Positions 17,609 to 25,171 of a stretch of DNA of 64,000 nt are shown one piece after another. The first letter of the stretch is position 1; every line of letters starts with the position of its first letter. Source of the stretch: Mycolicibacterium rutilum (GTDB taxonomy: Bacteria; Actinomycetota; Actinomycetes; Mycobacteriales; Mycobacteriaceae); contig NZ_LT629971.1 of the NCBI RefSeq assembly GCF_900108565.1, forward strand, positions 4,402,001-4,466,000. Reading direction: 5' to 3'. A program made the position numbers and the translations under genes. The notes under the pieces are model-generated. The model saw only the letters and a program-made list of their open reading frames with translations. It made no database searches and was not told where the DNA came from.

Positions 17609-18506
17609 TCAGAAGGGTGGTGGTTCGTCGTTTCTGGCGAGTCGTTCGGCGATGAGTAGGTCTGTGCGGGTGATGCGTGCGGTGTTGTGTTGGCGTTCCA
17701 GGGCGATGCGGTAGGTCTTGTCTTCGGTGCGGGTGCGGCGGCGTCTGGGCATCATCGCGCCCCGGTGATCGTTGGGCGCTGCGCTTGGTGTGGTCAGGTC
17801 GATGACGCCGGTGGGTTGGGCCAGCGCGGCGAAGAACTCAGCCCCGGCCGGTGTGGTCGTGTACATCTTCCCGCTGGGGGCGCGCCAGATCACGGTGCCA
17901 TCGGGCAGTTGCAGGTCGCCCCACCCGGTGCGTCCGGTCCAAAACGTCTTCAACAGATGGTGAAACACGCACAGCAGCTTGAGGTTTGACGGATGGGTGG
18001 GCCCCATCGGGTAAGCGACCGTGTGGTCGATCTGACACGCCGACGCCGGGACGTCACACCCGGGGAACCGGCACGCCAAATCGCGGCACCGAATGAACCG
18101 GGCCAACGCCGCCGAGGGCCGGCAACCGGCCTCCGCACACGGCTCAGGCAACGTGAGCGGGCGCAGTTGGGCGGTGGCGGCGCGCTCGCGCAGCACCGCC
18201 GCCGGGATCGCCCCGTACCCCGGCAGATACCCGGGGTTATTGTTCGAGCCCTCCAGGGTGGCCTGCTCGGCGATCACATTGATCACCACCTGCGCCGCCG
18301 GCGCCACCGACCCACTATTCGGACAATCGGAGGCACCACAACCGCACACCAACCGCAGCTGGCCTTGCGAGATGGCCACCATCGCGTCCACCCGGCGCTG
18401 CTCGGCGGTGCGTGGATCCTCACGACAGACGGTGGCGGCGATCTCGTCGATGCGGGTATCGAAGGCGACGCCTTCGTCGAAGGCCAGCCGCGCCCACACC
18501 CCGACC
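17609..18506 (-). pseudogene. DUF222/HNH endonuclease-like (13E12-type) gene, 3' part, separated by IS3 insertion
   Basis: This is the C-terminal 298 codons of a 13E12/REP-type DUF222-HNH protein. It shows the end of DUF222 (DPRTAEQRRVDAMVAIS, CGCGASDCPN) and the HNH nuclease core CRFPGCDVPASACQIDH, TVAYPMGPTHPSNL and LLCVFHHLLKT, with the His and zinc Cys residues intact. The 5' part lies beyond the transposon at 19818-20356. Removing the element and one ACC repeat joins the two exactly in frame (MGGGMV then GVWARLAFDEG), restoring a 477-residue protein. A residual GTG start near 18499 could still express this fragment, but the protein would lack most of DUF222. Such genes are repeated in mycobacterial genomes and have no settled function. 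Confidence 0.92.
18504..18506. repeat. Target site duplication (ACC), left copy
   Basis: ACC directly precedes the left inverted repeat, and the same ACC directly follows the right inverted repeat at 19818-19820. A 3-bp duplication is normal for IS3-family insertions. Confidence 0.85.
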
Positions 18507-18529
18507 TGAACTACCCCAGGTTTTCTTCC
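18507..18529. repeat. IS3 left terminal inverted repeat
   Basis: Begins TGAACTACCCCAGG and ends TCTTCC. All 23 bases are mirrored exactly by 19795-19817. Confidence 0.95.
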
Positions 18530-18554
18530 GATCTCTATAGGAGGATTGGAAGTT

Positions 18555-18872
18555 ATGCCCCGTCAGTATTCGCCCGAGTTTCGGGTGCGTGCGTTGCGTT
18601 TGGTGGACACCACAATGGAGTCTGCGGAAGTGTCTGAGTTCGAGGCGATCAAGTCTGTTGCGAGCAAACTCGGGGTTGCCGAGGAGTCGGTGCGTCGGTG
18701 GCGGCGTAAGTCGCAGATCGATGCCGGCGAACGCCCTGGCGTGACGACCTCCGAGCACGCTGAGATTCGCCGCCTCAAGCGCGAGGTCGCCGAATTACGA
18801 AGAGCGAACGAGATTTTGAAGTCTGCGTCAGCGTTTTTCGCAGCGGAACTCGACCGCCCAGGAACGAAATGA
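18555..18872 (+). CDS. IS3-family transposase OrfA (helix-turn-helix)
   Basis: A 105-residue OrfA. The N-terminus PRQYSPEFRVRALRLVD and the AIKSVASKLGVAEESVRRWRRK segment form the HTH_Tnp_1 DNA-binding domain that recognises the terminal repeats. A leucine-zipper-like helix follows (EIRRLKREVAELRRANEILKSASAFFA) for multimerisation. I choose ATG 18555 because AGGAGG lies 10 nt upstream; a TTG at 18546 is too close to that site. The end overlaps orfB (ATGA). A TTTTTC run at 18834-18839 near the end could support -1 slippage to make OrfAB. Confidence 0.95.
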   Translation: MPRQYSPEFRVRALRLVDTTMESAEVSEFEAIKSVASKLGVAEESVRRWRRKSQIDAGERPGVTTSEHAEIRRLKREVAELRRANEILKSASAFFAAELDRPGTK

Positions 18873-19795
18873 TCGCCTACATCGATGCGCATCGCGATCA
18901 GTTCGGGGTCGAGTTCATCTGCCGTGTTCTGCGGGCAGCTATCCCTGGGTTTTTCACCTCCCGCGGTTACCGCGACGCCAAGACCCGCCCCCGCTGCGAC
19001 CGCGCTCTGCGCGATGAGCTGCTGATCGCCGAGCTGGCCACCGTGCACCGGGCGAACTACTCGGTCTACGGCGTCAAGAAAATGCAGCACGCCATGATCC
19101 GGCGTGGCTGGTCGATCGGACGCGAACAAACCCGCAGGTTAATGCACTTGGCTGGCCTGCGCGGTGTGCGGCGCGGCAAACCGGTATTCACCACAATCAC
19201 CGACCCCGCCGCGGCCCGACCGGCCGATCTGGTCAACCGGCAGTTCGCCACCAGCGCACCCAATCGGCTCTGGGTCGCCGACATCACCTACGTGCGGACC
19301 TGGCAGGGGTTCTGCTACACCGCGTTCGTCACCGATGCCTGCACTAAACGGATCGTCGGGTGGGCGGTGTCGCCCACGATGAGCACCGAAGACTTACCTC
19401 TTCAGGCGTTCAATCATGCTGTTTGGCAACAGAACTCAGATCTTTCTGAGTTGATCCATCATTCCGACCGCGGATCGCAATACCTATCGCTGACCTATAC
19501 CGAGCGGCTACTTGAGCTCGACATCGCGCCATCGGTGGGATCTCGCGGAGATAGCTATGACAACGCCCTGGCCGAAGCAGTCAACGCCGCCTACAAAACA
19601 GAACTGATCTACCGCGGCCGGCGCTGGCGCGGCGTCGACGACGTCGAACTGGCAACCGCTCAATGGGTGGCCTGGTACAACCAGGAACGCCTGCACGAAG
19701 CCCTCGGCTACCTCACCCCAGCCGAGTACGAGACCGCCCTCACCGCGGACTCACACCATGCGAGCCAGCCAGCCCCGGCCCTCGCAACCGCATAG
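18869..19795 (+). CDS. IS3-family transposase OrfB (DDE catalytic domain)
   Basis: A 308-residue catalytic subunit. The HTH_21 region includes VYGVKKMQHAMIRRGWSIGREQ. The integrase core has the first Asp in NRLWVADITYV, the second in LIHHSDRGSQYLS and the Glu in SYDNALAEAVNAAYK, spaced as in IS3 DDE enzymes. The C-terminus has WYNQERLHEALGYLTPAEYE, typical of the family. The ATG overlaps the orfA stop by 4 bp, so it could be made by reinitiation, or fused to OrfA by -1 frameshifting, which is how the active IS3 transposase is usually produced. No inactivating change is visible. Confidence 0.95.
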   Translation: MIAYIDAHRDQFGVEFICRVLRAAIPGFFTSRGYRDAKTRPRCDRALRDELLIAELATVHRANYSVYGVKKMQHAMIRRGWSIGREQTRRLMHLAGLRGVRRGKPVFTTITDPAAARPADLVNRQFATSAPNRLWVADITYVRTWQGFCYTAFVTDACTKRIVGWAVSPTMSTEDLPLQAFNHAVWQQNSDLSELIHHSDRGSQYLSLTYTERLLELDIAPSVGSRGDSYDNALAEAVNAAYKTELIYRGRRWRGVDDVELATAQWVAWYNQERLHEALGYLTPAEYETALTADSHHASQPAPALATA

Positions 19796-19817
19796 GAAGA
19801 AAACCTGGGGTAGTTCA
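19795..19817. repeat. IS3 right terminal inverted repeat
   Basis: Begins GGAAGAAAACC and ends GGGGTAGTTCA, the exact complement of 18507-18529. It starts on the last base of the orfB stop codon. Confidence 0.95.
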
Positions 19818-19820
19818 ACC
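19818..19820. repeat. Target site duplication (ACC), right copy
   Basis: Matches 18504-18506 and marks the right junction of the insertion sequence. Confidence 0.85.
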
Positions 19821-20356
19821 ATCCCGCCGCCCATCGGCGCAACGTGCACATAGCGGTCATCGCGTTCCGGTGTGGGTTCACGCACCCCGGCCGGGTCGAA
19901 CTTTTCGACCCACATGTCGATGCGCTCACCAAGTTTGGGCCCCGACAGGTTCATCCACTTCGGGGCCCGGCGGGCGAACTCGGCGTCCAGGCGGGCCAGC
20001 AGCTCAGGGTCTTCGACGTTGCTGCTGCGATTGACCAGCGCGATCACCATCCGGTAGTCGATGTCCCCGGCGGCGAACACCTCCCCGACGTTGGGCAGGC
20101 GCTCGCGCAGGTCGATCGCCACATCCAGCCGGCTCGCCGCCCGCCCACGGCTGATATTGAGTGCCGCCGAGATCTCGGCGACCACGTTGGCATGCCCGTC
20201 AACCGCCCACGTCAGTCGCTCGTCCTCGTCCTCGGGCGCCCGACGGGCATAGAGCTCACCAATGGCGCGCATCTCTTGACCGCACGCCGCGTTCTGCGCA
20301 CGCGACGCCGCAGCGATGGCCTCCACCACCGCCACATCATCCGCCTGCTCGAACAT
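19818..20356 (-). pseudogene. DUF222/HNH endonuclease-like (13E12-type) gene, 5' part, truncated by IS3 insertion
   Basis: This holds the first 179 codons of the interrupted gene: MFEQADDVAVVEAI, then DERLTWAVDGHANVVAEIS, ALNISRGRAASRLDVAIDLRERLP and VGEVFAAGDIDYRMVIALVNRS, all DUF222 features. The open frame runs on into the transposon to 19751, adding foreign residues and a stop. With the 3' part at 17609-18506 and the element removed, the frame is continuous. ATG 20356 is preceded 7 nt upstream by TAATAT, which fits a leaderless start. Confidence 0.92.
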
Positions 20357-20430: not shown

Positions 20431-23130
20431 CTAGCGATTACGTCGGGCGCGCAGCCAGCGACGAACGCGACCACCAGACTCGGCGGTGGATTGTGCAGCG
20501 GGAGTTACGGTTTCGGAGGTGTCAGCGCCTGTCTGATCAACAGCTGACTCGCGAGCCCCCGACTCGTCGGCTGGGGCGTCGTCTGCCTCCTCGCCCTCGA
20601 CAGCGCCCAGATCGGCTTCGGCTTCGTCTGCGTCGCCGGCCTCGGCTTCGTTGGCAGCTTCGGCTTCCTCGGCCAGCTCGGCGGCCTCGGCTTCGCCTCC
20701 TACGGCGGCGTCGTGGGCCTCGGACGCACCGGCCAAGGCGTCGGAGGCTTCCTCACCCTCGACCGCGCCCAACCCGGCTTCGGCCTCTGCGGCTTCGCCG
20801 GCTTCGGCGAACTCCTCAGCCTCCGCGATCTCCTCGGCAGGCGCCGCGGCCACCTCATCGGCCAGTTCTTCAGCCTCCGCGACAGCCTCGGGCGTCTCAT
20901 CGCCGGAGCTGGCCTCCTCAGCCACCTCGGCGGCCTCGGCTTCGCCTTCTACGGCGGCGTCGTGGGCCTCGGACGCATCGGCCAAGGCTTCGGACGCTTC
21001 CTCACCCTCGACGGCGCCAAGCCCAGCTTCGGCATCCGCGGCGTCACCGGCATCGGCGAACTCCTCAGCCTCCGCGATTTCCTCGGGCGTTTCCTCGTCG
21101 GTACTGGCCTCCTCAGCCACCTCGGTGGCTTCAGCTTCGCCGTCGACGGCAGCGTCGTGGGCCTCAGATGCGTCGGCCAAGGCGTCGGAGGCTTCCTCAC
21201 CCTCGACAGCGCCAAGCCCAGCCTCCGCCTCTGCGGGTTCGTCGGCGGCGCTGGCTTCCTCGGCCAGCTCGGCGGCCTCAGCTTCGCCGTCGACGGCAGC
21301 GTCGTGGGCCTCAGATGCGTCGGCCAAGGCGTCGGAGGCTTCCTCACCCTCGACAGCGCCAAGCCCAGCCTCGGCCTCTGCGGCTTCGCCGGCTTCGGCG
21401 AACTCCTCAGCCTCCGCGATCTCCTCGGCAGGCGCCGCGGCCACCTCATCGGCCAGTTCTTCAGCCTCGGCGACAGCCTCGGGCGTCTCCTCGGCGGCGC
21501 TGGCTTCCTCGGCCAGCTCGGCGGCCTCAGCTTCGCCCTCGACGGCAGCGTCGTGGGCCTCAGATGCGTCGGCCAAGGCGTCGGAGGCTTCCTCACCCTC
21601 AACAGCGCCAAGCCCGGCCTCCGCCTCTGCGGGTTCCTCGGCGGCGCTGGCTTCTTCGGCCAGCTCGGCGGCTTCAGCTTCGCCCTCAACAGCCGCGTCG
21701 TGGGCCTCAGATGCGTCGGCCAAGGCGTCGGAGGCTTCCTCACCCTCAACAGCGCCAAGGCCGGCCTCCGCCTCTGCGGGTTCCTCACCGGAGCTGGCTT
21801 CCTCGGCCAGCTCGGCGGCCTCCGCCTCGCCCTCAACAGCCGCGTCGTGCGCTTCAGCCGCATCCGCCAAGGCGTCGGACGCTTCCTCACCCTCAACGGC
21901 GCCGAGCCCAGCTTCGGCATCCGCGGCTTCACCGGCTTCGGCGAACTCCTCAGCCTCCAGGATTTCCTCGGCAGGTGCGACGGCCACGTCGTCGGCGAGT
22001 TCCTCTGCCTCCGCGACGGCTTCCGCGGTGTCGGACGTGGCTTCGGGGTCGTCGCCCTCCAGCGCGAACTCCTCGGCTTCCTCCAGATCGTCGGCGGGCA
22101 CACCGGCGACGTCGGCGCCGAAGTCTTCGGCCGCGATCTCTCGAGTCGCCTCGTCCTCGGCGGCCTTGAGATCCTCTTCCTCATCGGCCGCAGCAGCTTT
22201 CGCCGCGGCCACAACACCCGCAGTAGCGCCGACAGCCGCGAGTTCTTCGGTCAGGTCCTCGGCGCGATCGTCGCCCTGGAGTGTGGCCGGGTCTTCACGA
22301 CCCTTCGGCGCGACCATGATGTACACCACGGCGCCGATGAACACGAATGTCGACGTGAACGAGTTGATCCGGACGCCGTCGATCAACGTGGCGTCGTCGA
22401 CCCGCAGCAGTTCGATCCAGAACCGGCCCAGGCAGTAACCCGCCACATACATCGCGAACAGCCGGCCGTGGCCGAACTTGAAGCGCCGGTCGACGTAGAT
22501 GAGCACCGCGAAAACCAGCAGGTTCCACAGCAGTTCGTAGAGGAACGTCGGATGGACGAGGTGCACCACCTCGCCGGTCGACACACCGTTGAGGTTGTCG
22601 AGCGCACCCGAGGCGTCGCGCCGCTCATAGATCTCCAGCGCCCACGGCAGCGTCGTCGGGGCGCCCCACAGCTCCTGGTTGAAGTAGTTGCCGATGCGCC
22701 CGATCGCCTGCGCCAGCACGATTCCCGGCGCGATCGCGTCCCCGAACGCGGGCAGCGGTATCCCCCGCCGCCGACAGGCGATCCATGCGCCGACGCCACC
22801 GAGCGCGACCGCTCCCCAGATTCCGAGACCGCCGTCCCAGATCCGGAAGACCCCGGCCAGCCCGGCTCCGTTCTCGCCGAAGTACCGCCACCAATCGGTC
22901 ATCACGTGGTACAGCCGGCCACCGATCAGACCGAACGGCACCGCCCACAACGCGATGTCGTAGATGACGCCCCGCTCACCGCCACGCGCCTCCCACCGGC
23001 GGTCGCCGATGACGAGTGCCGCGATGATGCCGACGATGATGAACAACGCGTACGCCCGCAGCGGAACCGGCCCGATGTGCCAGACGCCCTGCGCGGGGCT
23101 GGGGATCGCCGCCAAGAAGGTCGTCGTCAC
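20431..23130 (-). CDS. lgt: Prolipoprotein diacylglyceryl transferase with giant acidic repeat tail
   Basis: An 899-residue protein. Residues 1-275 are a normal Lgt, the membrane enzyme that transfers diacylglycerol from phosphatidylglycerol to the lipobox Cys of prolipoproteins. The Lgt signature IGRIGNYFNQELWGAPT is present, with WDGGLGIWG, HPTFLYELLWNLLVF and several membrane helices. Residues 276-899 are a tail made almost only of Ala, Glu, Asp, Val, Gly and Ser. It contains eight copies of a unit with core GAVEGEEASDALADASEAHD. The tail should lie in the cytoplasm after the last helix and be disordered or helical. E. coli Lgt has 291 residues and no tail; the M. tuberculosis protein has a shorter one, as I recall. 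The ATG overlaps the trpA stop by 4 bp. Confidence 0.95.
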   Translation of the reverse strand: MTTTFLAAIPSPAQGVWHIGPVPLRAYALFIIVGIIAALVIGDRRWEARGGERGVIYDIALWAVPFGLIGGRLYHVMTDWWRYFGENGAGLAGVFRIWDGGLGIWGAVALGGVGAWIACRRRGIPLPAFGDAIAPGIVLAQAIGRIGNYFNQELWGAPTTLPWALEIYERRDASGALDNLNGVSTGEVVHLVHPTFLYELLWNLLVFAVLIYVDRRFKFGHGRLFAMYVAGYCLGRFWIELLRVDDATLIDGVRINSFTSTFVFIGAVVYIMVAPKGREDPATLQGDDRAEDLTEELAAVGATAGVVAAAKAAAADEEEDLKAAEDEATREIAAEDFGADVAGVPADDLEEAEEFALEGDDPEATSDTAEAVAEAEELADDVAVAPAEEILEAEEFAEAGEAADAEAGLGAVEGEEASDALADAAEAHDAAVEGEAEAAELAEEASSGEEPAEAEAGLGAVEGEEASDALADASEAHDAAVEGEAEAAELAEEASAAEEPAEAEAGLGAVEGEEASDALADASEAHDAAVEGEAEAAELAEEASAAEETPEAVAEAEELADEVAAAPAEEIAEAEEFAEAGEAAEAEAGLGAVEGEEASDALADASEAHDAAVDGEAEAAELAEEASAADEPAEAEAGLGAVEGEEASDALADASEAHDAAVDGEAEATEVAEEASTDEETPEEIAEAEEFADAGDAADAEAGLGAVEGEEASEALADASEAHDAAVEGEAEAAEVAEEASSGDETPEAVAEAEELADEVAAAPAEEIAEAEEFAEAGEAAEAEAGLGAVEGEEASDALAGASEAHDAAVGGEAEAAELAEEAEAANEAEAGDADEAEADLGAVEGEEADDAPADESGARESAVDQTGADTSETVTPAAQSTAESGGRVRRWLRARRNR
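20540..21930 (-). repeat. Tandem coding repeats in lgt (eight copies, approximate bounds)
   Basis: The core GAVEGEE is encoded eight times, at about 21895, 21750, 21600, 21355, 21205, 21010, 20755 and 20590 on the plus-strand scale. Successive copies are about 145-250 bp apart. Copies 3, 5 and 6 carry an extra TPEAVAEAEELADE-type or EEIAEAEEFA-type block, which accounts for the longer spacings. The last copy is degenerate. Many adjacent copies are nearly identical at the DNA level, which points to recent duplication or gene conversion. The bounds are estimates. Confidence 0.9.
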
Positions 23131-23915
23131 GCAGAGATCCTCTGCCGAACTCCGTCAGCGAGTTCCGCGGTCAGCGCCGCGACCGCGTCGAGGCCGGTCT
23201 GCAGCGCCGACACCAAAGCCGAACCCACGATGACCCCGTCGGCGTACGCGCCGATCTGCGCGGCCTGTTCGGCCGACCTGACGCCCAGGCCCACGCCGAC
23301 CGGGATGTCCGAGACCTCTTTGACCCGTCGCACCAATTCCGGTGCCGCGTTGGACACCGCATCGCGCGCGCCAGTGACTCCCATCGTCGAGGCGGCGTAG
23401 ACGAAGCCGCGCGACGCGTTGACCGTCATCGCCAGCCGCTCCGGCGTCGACGACGGCGCCACCAGGAAGATCCGGTCCAGATCGTGCGTCTCCGATGCTG
23501 CCATCCACTCGTCGGCCTCTTCGGGGATCAGGTCCGGCGTGATCAGGCCGAGGCCGCCGGCCGCCGCCAGGTCCCGCGCGAAAGCGTCGATGCCCCACTT
23601 CAGTACGGGATTCCAGTACGTCATCACGACGGCGCGTCCGCCCGCGTTGCTGATCGCCTCGACCGCTGCCAGCGCGTCCCGCACCCGCACACCACCGCGC
23701 AACGCGACATCCGTCGCCGCCGCGATGACCGGGCCGTCCATGCCGGGGTCGGAATACGCGATCCCGACTTCCACGACGTCGCAACCGTTTTCGACGAGGG
23801 TGGTCATCGCGGAGATGGAAGTCGGCACGTCCGGGAAGCCGGTCGGCAGGTAGCCGATGAACGTGGAGCGTTCTTCGGCACGGCAGGCGTCGAACATCGG
23901 TCCCAACCGGCTCAC
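23127..23915 (-). CDS. trpA: Tryptophan synthase alpha subunit
   Basis: About 262 residues; it cleaves indole-3-glycerol phosphate to indole and glyceraldehyde 3-phosphate and hands indole to TrpB. Family blocks are [28 protein letters not shown] (catalytic Glu and Asp), [45 protein letters not shown] and [16 protein letters not shown] favour GTG 23915 because GTGA overlaps the trpB stop by 4 bp. ATG 23942, 31 bp inside trpB, is an alternative that adds nine residues. The stop overlaps lgt. Confidence 0.95.
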
Positions 23916-25171
23916 GGCGCACCGTCCAGCAACCCGAACCATTTCGCGGCGGTTTCGACGTCCTTGTCCCCGCGGCCCGACAGGTTCACCAACACGATCG
24001 AACCGCGGCCGAGCTCGCGACCCAGCTTCAGTGCGCCCGCGAGGCCGTGCGCGGATTCGATCGCCGGGATGATCCCCTCGGTGCGGCAGAGCAACGAGAA
24101 CGCGTCCATCGCCTCGCTGTCGGTGATGGGACGGTACTCCGCGCGACCGGTGTCCTTGAGGAACGCGTGCTCGGGACCGACGCCCGGATAATCCAAACCC
24201 GCTGAGATCGAATGCGATTCGATGGTCTGGCCGTCGTCGTCCTGCAGCAGGTAGGAGAACGAACCCTGGAACGCCCCGGGTGAACCACCCGTGAAAGTCG
24301 CTGCGTGCCGGCCGGTTTCGACCCCGTCACCGGCGGCCTCGTATCCGACGAGCCGCACGTTGGGATCGTCGATGAAAGCGTGGAAGATCCCGATCGCGTT
24401 CGACCCGCCGCCGATGCACGCGGTCACCGCGTCGGGCAACCGCCCCGCCTGCGCCAGGATCTGCGCGCGCGCCTCCAGCCCGATCACGCGTTGGAAATCG
24501 CGCACCATCGTCGGGAACGGATGCGGTCCGGCGGCGGTGCCGAAGCAGTAGTAGGTGTTGTCGGCGTTGGTGACCCAGTCGCGGAACGCCTCGTTGATGG
24601 CGTCCTTGAGCGTCTTCGATCCGGCCTCGACCGAGACGACCGTCGCGCCCAGCAGTCGCATCCGCGCCACGTTGAGCGCCTGGCGCGCGGTGTCCACAGC
24701 GCCCATGTAGATGACGCACTCGAGCCCCAGCAGCGCGCACGCCGTCGCGGTCGCCACACCGTGCTGTCCGGCGCCGGTCTCGGCGATCACCCGGGTCTTG
24801 CCCATCTGCCGCGCCAGCAGCGCCTGGCCCAGGACGTTGTTGATCTTGTGGGATCCGGTGTGGTTGAGATCTTCTCGCTTCAGGAAGATCCGGGCTTCCC
24901 CGGCGTGCTCCGACAGCCGCTCGGCCTCGTACAGCGGCGAGGGGCGGCCGCTGTAGTGCTGCTGCAGCCGGTCCAGTTCGTCGAGGAACGTCTGATCGCC
25001 GCGGGCCTTCTCGTACGCCGAGGTGACCTCCTCGATCACCGCCATCAGCGCCTCGGCGACCAGGCGGCCGCCGTAGACACCGAAGTGGCCGCGCTCGTCG
25101 GGGTCATGCGGGGTCGGCTCGGCCACGGCCGCACTGGAACGGGGCAGTTCAGGCCCGGCGTTGTCGGCCAC
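23912..25171 (-). CDS. trpB: Tryptophan synthase beta subunit
   Basis: A 419-residue PLP enzyme that condenses indole with serine. The PLP lysine is in [19 protein letters not shown], and [23 protein letters not shown], the phosphate-binding GGGSNAIG, and [17 protein letters not shown] match the family. The N-terminal [15 protein letters not shown] block is typical. It lies 3 bp after trpC and overlaps trpA by 4 bp. Length is normal. Confidence 0.97.

Follow-up and report, generated by a model that had tools for sequence, protein, structure and literature searches.

Selection on a histidine-containing repeat unit and conservation of a cationic tip in the acidic tail of Lgt from Mycolicibacterium rutilum

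The lipoprotein-modifying enzyme Lgt of Mycolicibacterium rutilum continues after its membrane-embedded part into a long, acidic and repetitive tail, and the locus raises the question of whether this tail is maintained for a function and, if so, for which one. The window, that is the whole stretch of 64,000 nucleotides that was analysed, belongs to a genome assembled as one 5.99-Mb contig, in which a single lgt copy is present. The gene and its two main parts are located as follows.

20431..23130, minus strand: lgt gene, 899 aa, GTG start at 23130
22291..23130, minus strand: membrane core, residues 1-280, with seven predicted membrane helices
20434..22290, minus strand: acidic C-terminal tail, residues 281-899 (619 aa), 34% D/E and 2% K/R

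The product was confirmed as Lgt, the identity given to it in the original prediction. LGT (PF01790) is the sole Pfam domain in the 899-aa product and covers residues 16-272 (E 1e-63, 215 bits against a cut-off of 24.9), and the score for TIGR00544 is above its cut-off (140.9 and 118.9, respectively). The actinobacterial Lgt equivalog NF009611, which models part of the M. tuberculosis Lgt extension, aligns with residues 4-455 and scores 583.6 bits, below the curated cut-off of 636, probably because the tail is divergent; the protein is therefore described here only as related to this equivalog. The signature G-R-x-G-N-[FY]-[IF]-N-x-E is present as GRIGNYFNQE at residue 144, and Y27, R145, N148, E153 and R236 correspond to the catalytic positions Y26, R143, N146, E151 and R239 of E. 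coli Lgt (comparison with PMC13251419). W105 occupies the place of E. coli H103, in agreement with the W described at this position in Actinobacteria (PMC13251419). Judged from the sequence, M. rutilum possesses an active-type Lgt, with the expected active-site residues present.

A fold search retrieved 5azb as the sole significant match (E 1.5e-6); the superposition is poor (rmsd 8.4), and the model used for it has low confidence. E. coli Lgt (5azb/5azc) is the one relative with a known structure, and the model of M. rutilum Lgt has seven helices, as in the seven-helix fold of that enzyme. The N-terminus of E. coli Lgt lies on the periplasmic side. With seven predicted helices and the same periplasmic start, the tail of M. 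rutilum Lgt is predicted to be cytoplasmic, the side on which it had been placed originally. Lgt had also been called essential, and this applies to part of the genus: lgt is reportedly essential in M. tuberculosis, whereas an M. smegmatis deletion mutant is said to be viable.

The expectation of an acidic, repetitive tail of about 620 residues after the last membrane helix was borne out by 619 residues, which include 211 D/E and 12 K/R, with seven K/R among the last 30. Recurring 8-mers make up 52% of the tail and 0% of shuffled tails. TRF detected in-frame periods of 147, 195 and 396 bp, with scores up to 1242, and the main repeat periods are all multiples of three. Eight copies of a GAVEGEEA core were found, at residues 410, 459, 508, 591, 640, 705, 788 and 842, and the tail is built from the following units, spacer modules and end peptide.

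21913..22038, minus strand: spacer module AEAVAEAEELADDV..APAEEILEAEEFAEAGEA copy 1, residues 365-406, with similar modules in relatives
21790..21912, minus strand: repeat unit 1, residues 407-447, predicted helix 416-446
21643..21765, minus strand: repeat unit 2, residues 456-496, helix unresolved in the model
21496..21618, minus strand: repeat unit 3, residues 505-545, predicted helix 515-544
21370..21486, minus strand: spacer module copy 2, residues 549-587
21247..21369, minus strand: repeat unit 4, residues 588-628, predicted helix 598-628
21100..21222, minus strand: repeat unit 5, residues 637-677, predicted helix 645-676
21028..21090, minus strand: spacer module, shortened copy, residues 681-701
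20905..21027, minus strand: repeat unit 6, residues 702-742, predicted helix 710-741
20779..20895, minus strand: spacer module copy 3, residues 746-784
20656..20778, minus strand: repeat unit 7, residues 785-825, predicted helix 793-831
20494..20616, minus strand: repeat unit 8, decayed, residues 839-879, without the histidine and the second half
20434..20475, minus strand: cationic C-terminal tip GGRVRRWLRARRNR, residues 886-899, predicted helix 888-898

The sequence GAVEGEEASDALAD is exact in five copies, and copies 6 and 7 are each one residue off. Seven of the eight repeats announced as near-identical deserve that description, with pairwise identities of 80-98% in DNA and 85-100% in protein, for which "close to identical" in DNA was somewhat overstated; the eighth is decayed (41-49% amino-acid identity over the unit). 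The span initially given, 20431-21930, lies within lgt and corresponds to residues 401-899, which is part of the tail only. Longer spacers follow units 3, 5 and 6 and contain another module (..AEAEELADEVAAAPAEEIAEAEEFAEAGEA..), in shortened form after unit 5; a copy of it is also present upstream of unit 1.

The tail matched no families in Pfam and NCBIfam and had no significant match among PDB sequences, and the 43 unit pairs revealed no consistent family. The repeat was not detected outside Lgt in the genome of M. rutilum or in those of 30 relatives. The tip was also considered as a common C-terminal tag and was rejected as such, its DNA pattern occurring at 3 genome sites against 7 for a reversed control.

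Selection appears to maintain the amino-acid sequence of the unit. Among copies 1-7, pS is 0.36 and pN is 0.045 (pN/pS about 0.11-0.12). On the sense strand, the coding frame has a ratio of 0.11, against 3.1 and 4.3 for the two alternative frames, and the variable columns at codon positions 1, 2 and 3 number 6, 3 and 25, respectively. Of the 42 distinct changes, 29 are synonymous, with 15.2 expected; 5000 permutations that scattered the observed base changes randomly over the unit never gave as many as 29. Gene conversion alone lowers silent and replacement changes alike, and the silent-site bias therefore indicates that the amino-acid sequence of the unit is maintained.

AlphaFold with 31 sequences modelled the core, a roughly 30-residue helix in most units (pLDDT about 65-90), flexible linkers and a final helix at residues 888-898. 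A two-unit model (43 sequences) contains two helices of 33-34 residues, with a block pLDDT up to 91, and no packing between units was confident in the models (pTM 0.31-0.36). Within the unit, hydrophobic residues recur with the period of a helix (P 0.005); conservation considered alone showed no significant helical periodicity (P 0.13). AlphaFold readily calls helices in Ala/Glu-rich sequence, and the unit helix is therefore treated as a prediction. On these models, each unit would fold as a single amphipathic helix that bears the fixed histidine and has an Ala/Val/Leu face, and flexible acidic linkers would join the helices. The hydrophobic moment of the tip is not above that of shuffles of the same residues, which suggests that charge and Trp are kept in the tip, rather than a strict amphipathic helix.

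Lgt was identified in all 276 Mycobacterium genomes (completeness at least 90%, contamination at most 5%, from collections that hold one genome per species), mostly in stop-to-stop frames far longer than the core. The 98 complete tails range from 50 to 845 aa, with a median of 460. Seventeen of them are longer than the tail of M. rutilum, including one in an aberrant third copy (G150), and long acidic tails are the norm in the genus, contrary to the impression that a tail of this length and regularity is unusual. The D+E content of the 98 tails is 33.5% (sd 5) despite their diverged sequences, and K/R account for 2% of the body. At least five K/R within the last 20 residues were present in 84 of the 98 tails, 70 of which also possess Trp there. 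In a sample of 20 from other genera of the family, tails are shorter (20-360 aa), with a basic end in some. Four lineages (L138, L139, L178 and L179) have tails of 50-67 aa without the basic tip and represent natural tests of the need for the tail; two of these short tails, in L178 and L179, belong to reduced genomes of 3.3 Mb.

Draft contigs stop within or just beyond the Lgt tail in L082 (G107), L085 (G039), L086/L036 (G221) and L103 (G044), so that tail lengths from drafts are uncertain and their unit counts may be low. The complete genome G150:C1 harbours three full-length Lgt genes (L165, L166 and L167), one with a tail apparently frameshifted into basic sequence and another with the odd tail of 845 aa. 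In a one-contig genome (G045:C1:3400738-3401516), the Lgt core is distributed over three reading frames, which reflects either sequencing errors or a broken gene.

The unit V-E-G-[ED]-[ED]-x11-H is common to Lgts from many species within one large clade, with 206 units in 47 proteins and 12.9 in shuffled tails. These 47 proteins belong to one part of the core tree, save scattered single loose matches, and no repeat unit was found in slow growers apart from such matches. Histidine played no part in the choice of the anchor V[ED]G[ED][ED]. Of its occurrences, 195 have at least one H within 30 residues, and 191 of these carry H at +16; 52 more anchors have no H. For 157 of 202 units, a unit from the same genome is at least as close as any from elsewhere, and this preference for the own genome is a mark of concerted evolution.

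Unit number varies from 1 to 11 among the relatives' Lgts, also between closely related species; the comparison is between species, whereas the original prediction of copy-number variation concerned strains. L081 and L082, with cores 98.8% identical, have 6 and 9 units, and L105 and L108, with core identity of 98.4-98.8%, have 7 and 5, although some of the close pairs compared include draft assemblies, in which exact unit counts may be low. In pairs with cores 98.4-98.8% identical, tails measure 596 and 752, 721 and 494, and 493 and 383 aa, while the last 14 residues are nearly unchanged. The tails of the complete or nearly complete L158 and L163 are also unequal (528 and 494 aa). Unit number turns over fast while the tip stays. 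The conserved cationic end and the unit with its histidine extend what had been predicted, as do the silent-site bias and the predicted unit helix.

We tentatively prefer, at somewhat short of an even chance, the reading that the tail is a cytoplasmic multivalent docking array, whose cationic tip binds back to an anionic surface, either the membrane or a partner. The cytoplasmic end of Lgt would have grown into a modular, flexible and strongly acidic array, with the units as repeated docking sites for a putative cytoplasmic or membrane-bound partner, possibly basic, which might belong to the export machinery or be a nearby enzyme of the envelope. Reach and avidity would come from the length of the chain, and the cationic tip could fold back on the inner leaflet or on the acidic chain of a neighbouring Lgt. 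As a result, Lgt would be held or clustered near its partner, with catalysis itself unchanged. The silent-site bias, the cross-species unit, the helical period, the kept acidity and tip, and the confinement of the repeat to Lgt are in agreement with a docking array. It is opposed by the lineages that live with tails of 50-67 aa and no basic tip, by slow growers lacking the unit bar loose matches, and by the lack of confident packing between units. Crowding sensing, a role also suggested originally for the tail, found no support here.

A somewhat unlikely alternative is an entropic polyanion brush, in which charge and bulk alone matter and repeats are an easy route to a long acidic chain with no specific partner. 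Such a chain could, for example, space Lgt molecules, repel nucleic acid or other anionic material, or aid solubility. It would fit the kept composition (33.5% D/E, sd 5, and 2% K/R in the body), the acidic tails of slow growers without the unit, and the wide length range of 50-845 aa. However, an exact unit under selection (pN/pS 0.11), a histidine whose position is fixed in 191 of 195 units and a conserved basic tip go beyond bulk charge.

Mainly neutral growth, in which slippage and recombination lengthen an acidic, GC-rich stretch that is harmless at the end of the gene, would account for the fast turnover of unit number, for the homogenisation within genomes (157 of 202 units) and for the near absence of a tail in several lineages. 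We regard it as improbable in view of the synonymous excess, the frame that is intact to the conserved basic tip in 84 of the 98 complete tails, and the acidic composition retained across unrelated repeats.

Less probable still is that the cationic tip senses the membrane or its lipids, that the acidic chain behaves like an electrostatic spring, and that binding of phosphatidylglycerol or another anionic lipid tunes access to the lipid donor. Lgt uses phosphatidylglycerol, its established substrate, and an Arg/Trp-rich tip lies at the extreme end of the protein. A similar internal Arg/Trp-rich patch (e.g. RRRLRFWPKRGRK), tip-like in its make-up, is present in the tails of twelve close relatives (L081, L082, L084, L085, L032-L036, L040, L041 and L091) and absent from those of M. 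rutilum and L080. Nonetheless, the modification reaction occurs at the membrane's outer face, the tip moment is unremarkable and the tip is lost in some lineages.

A wrong copy number or frame through misassembly, which might be suspected because arrays trouble short-read assembly and contigs of draft relatives end in or just past the tail, is hardly credible given a one-contig genome, periods that are all multiples of three, many silent differences between copies, and similar arrays in other one-contig genomes, e.g. L084 (G065) and L117 (G054).

Lgt tails had been taken as known in mycobacteria, and a large C-terminal extension without known homologues is indeed on record for M. tuberculosis Lgt (PMC13251419). 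Similar to M. rutilum Lgt, that protein (Rv1614; NF009611 / PRK13108) extends far beyond its last membrane helix; in comparison with the M. tuberculosis sequence, which was not identified among the sampled genomes, the M. rutilum tail has 619 aa, seven to eight predicted-helix units and a fixed His. The tails of related rapid growers (L081, L082, L084, L034, L041, L089, L118, L124 and others) share the V-E-G unit and have a similar spacer module and a similar tip, but have 1-11 units and other linkers, and twelve possess the internal basic patch that M. rutilum lacks. A second mycobacterial Lgt paralogue, found as frames of about 264 aa that we take to be of the MSMEG_5408 type from their size and weaker score, shares the LGT domain but has no tail, and the M. 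rutilum genome lacks this second copy.

Works-like comparisons, for which no sequence relation is claimed, may be made with the acidic A domain of FtsY, a flexible acidic domain beside the translocon, and with the C-terminal membrane-targeting helices of FtsA and MinD, which are short end peptides on a flexible linker; in contrast to these proteins, Lgt already spans the membrane. In the open-licence papers searched, we came across no account of the repeat unit, the selection on it, the tip or the spread of tail lengths, and nothing relevant on tandem repeats or disordered tails in Lgt. The extension itself had already been reported, and the new elements are the unit, its selection and turnover, the predicted helix and the conserved tip.

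A broader form of the docking-array reading, which we consider unlikely, is that the Lgt tails of rapid growers constitute a previously undescribed class of multivalent scaffold, in which histidine-marked amphipathic helices form an evolvable array that ends in a cationic tip and recruits a specific partner from the cytoplasm, and recombination tunes the length of this array. If so, export or envelope-synthesis machinery, for example, could be brought to the lipoprotein-making enzyme. Models and alignments of Lgt, which has been proposed as a target for antibiotics, usually omit the mycobacterial extension as uninformative. The selection, modularity and conserved tip of the extension suggest a function that is now ignored; at stake is whether mycobacterial lipoprotein modification is organised from the cytoplasmic side.

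Around lgt, the gene start and the end of a trpA-like ORF (23127-23942) overlap by 4 bases, and by our reading of the ORFs the order on the minus strand is trpC-trpB-trpA-lgt. An 895-aa ORF is located antisense to lgt (20713-23400, plus strand). It was rejected as coding, with a pN/pS of 3.1 over the repeats (strand -1 frame 0) and no silent-site bias, and is probably mechanical. The simplest explanation for the pN/pS of 0.16 over the repeats in one antisense frame is that it mirrors the sense-strand third positions. Just downstream of lgt, an IS3-family-like element (18507-19817) encodes an HTH_Tnp_1 ORF and an rve ORF and possesses perfect 23-bp terminal inverted repeats (TGAACTACCCCAGGTTTTCTTCC) and a 3-bp target duplication, ACC, at 18504-18506 and 19818-19820. 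The element interrupts a 13E12-type DUF222 gene (17609-20356), the halves of which flank it.
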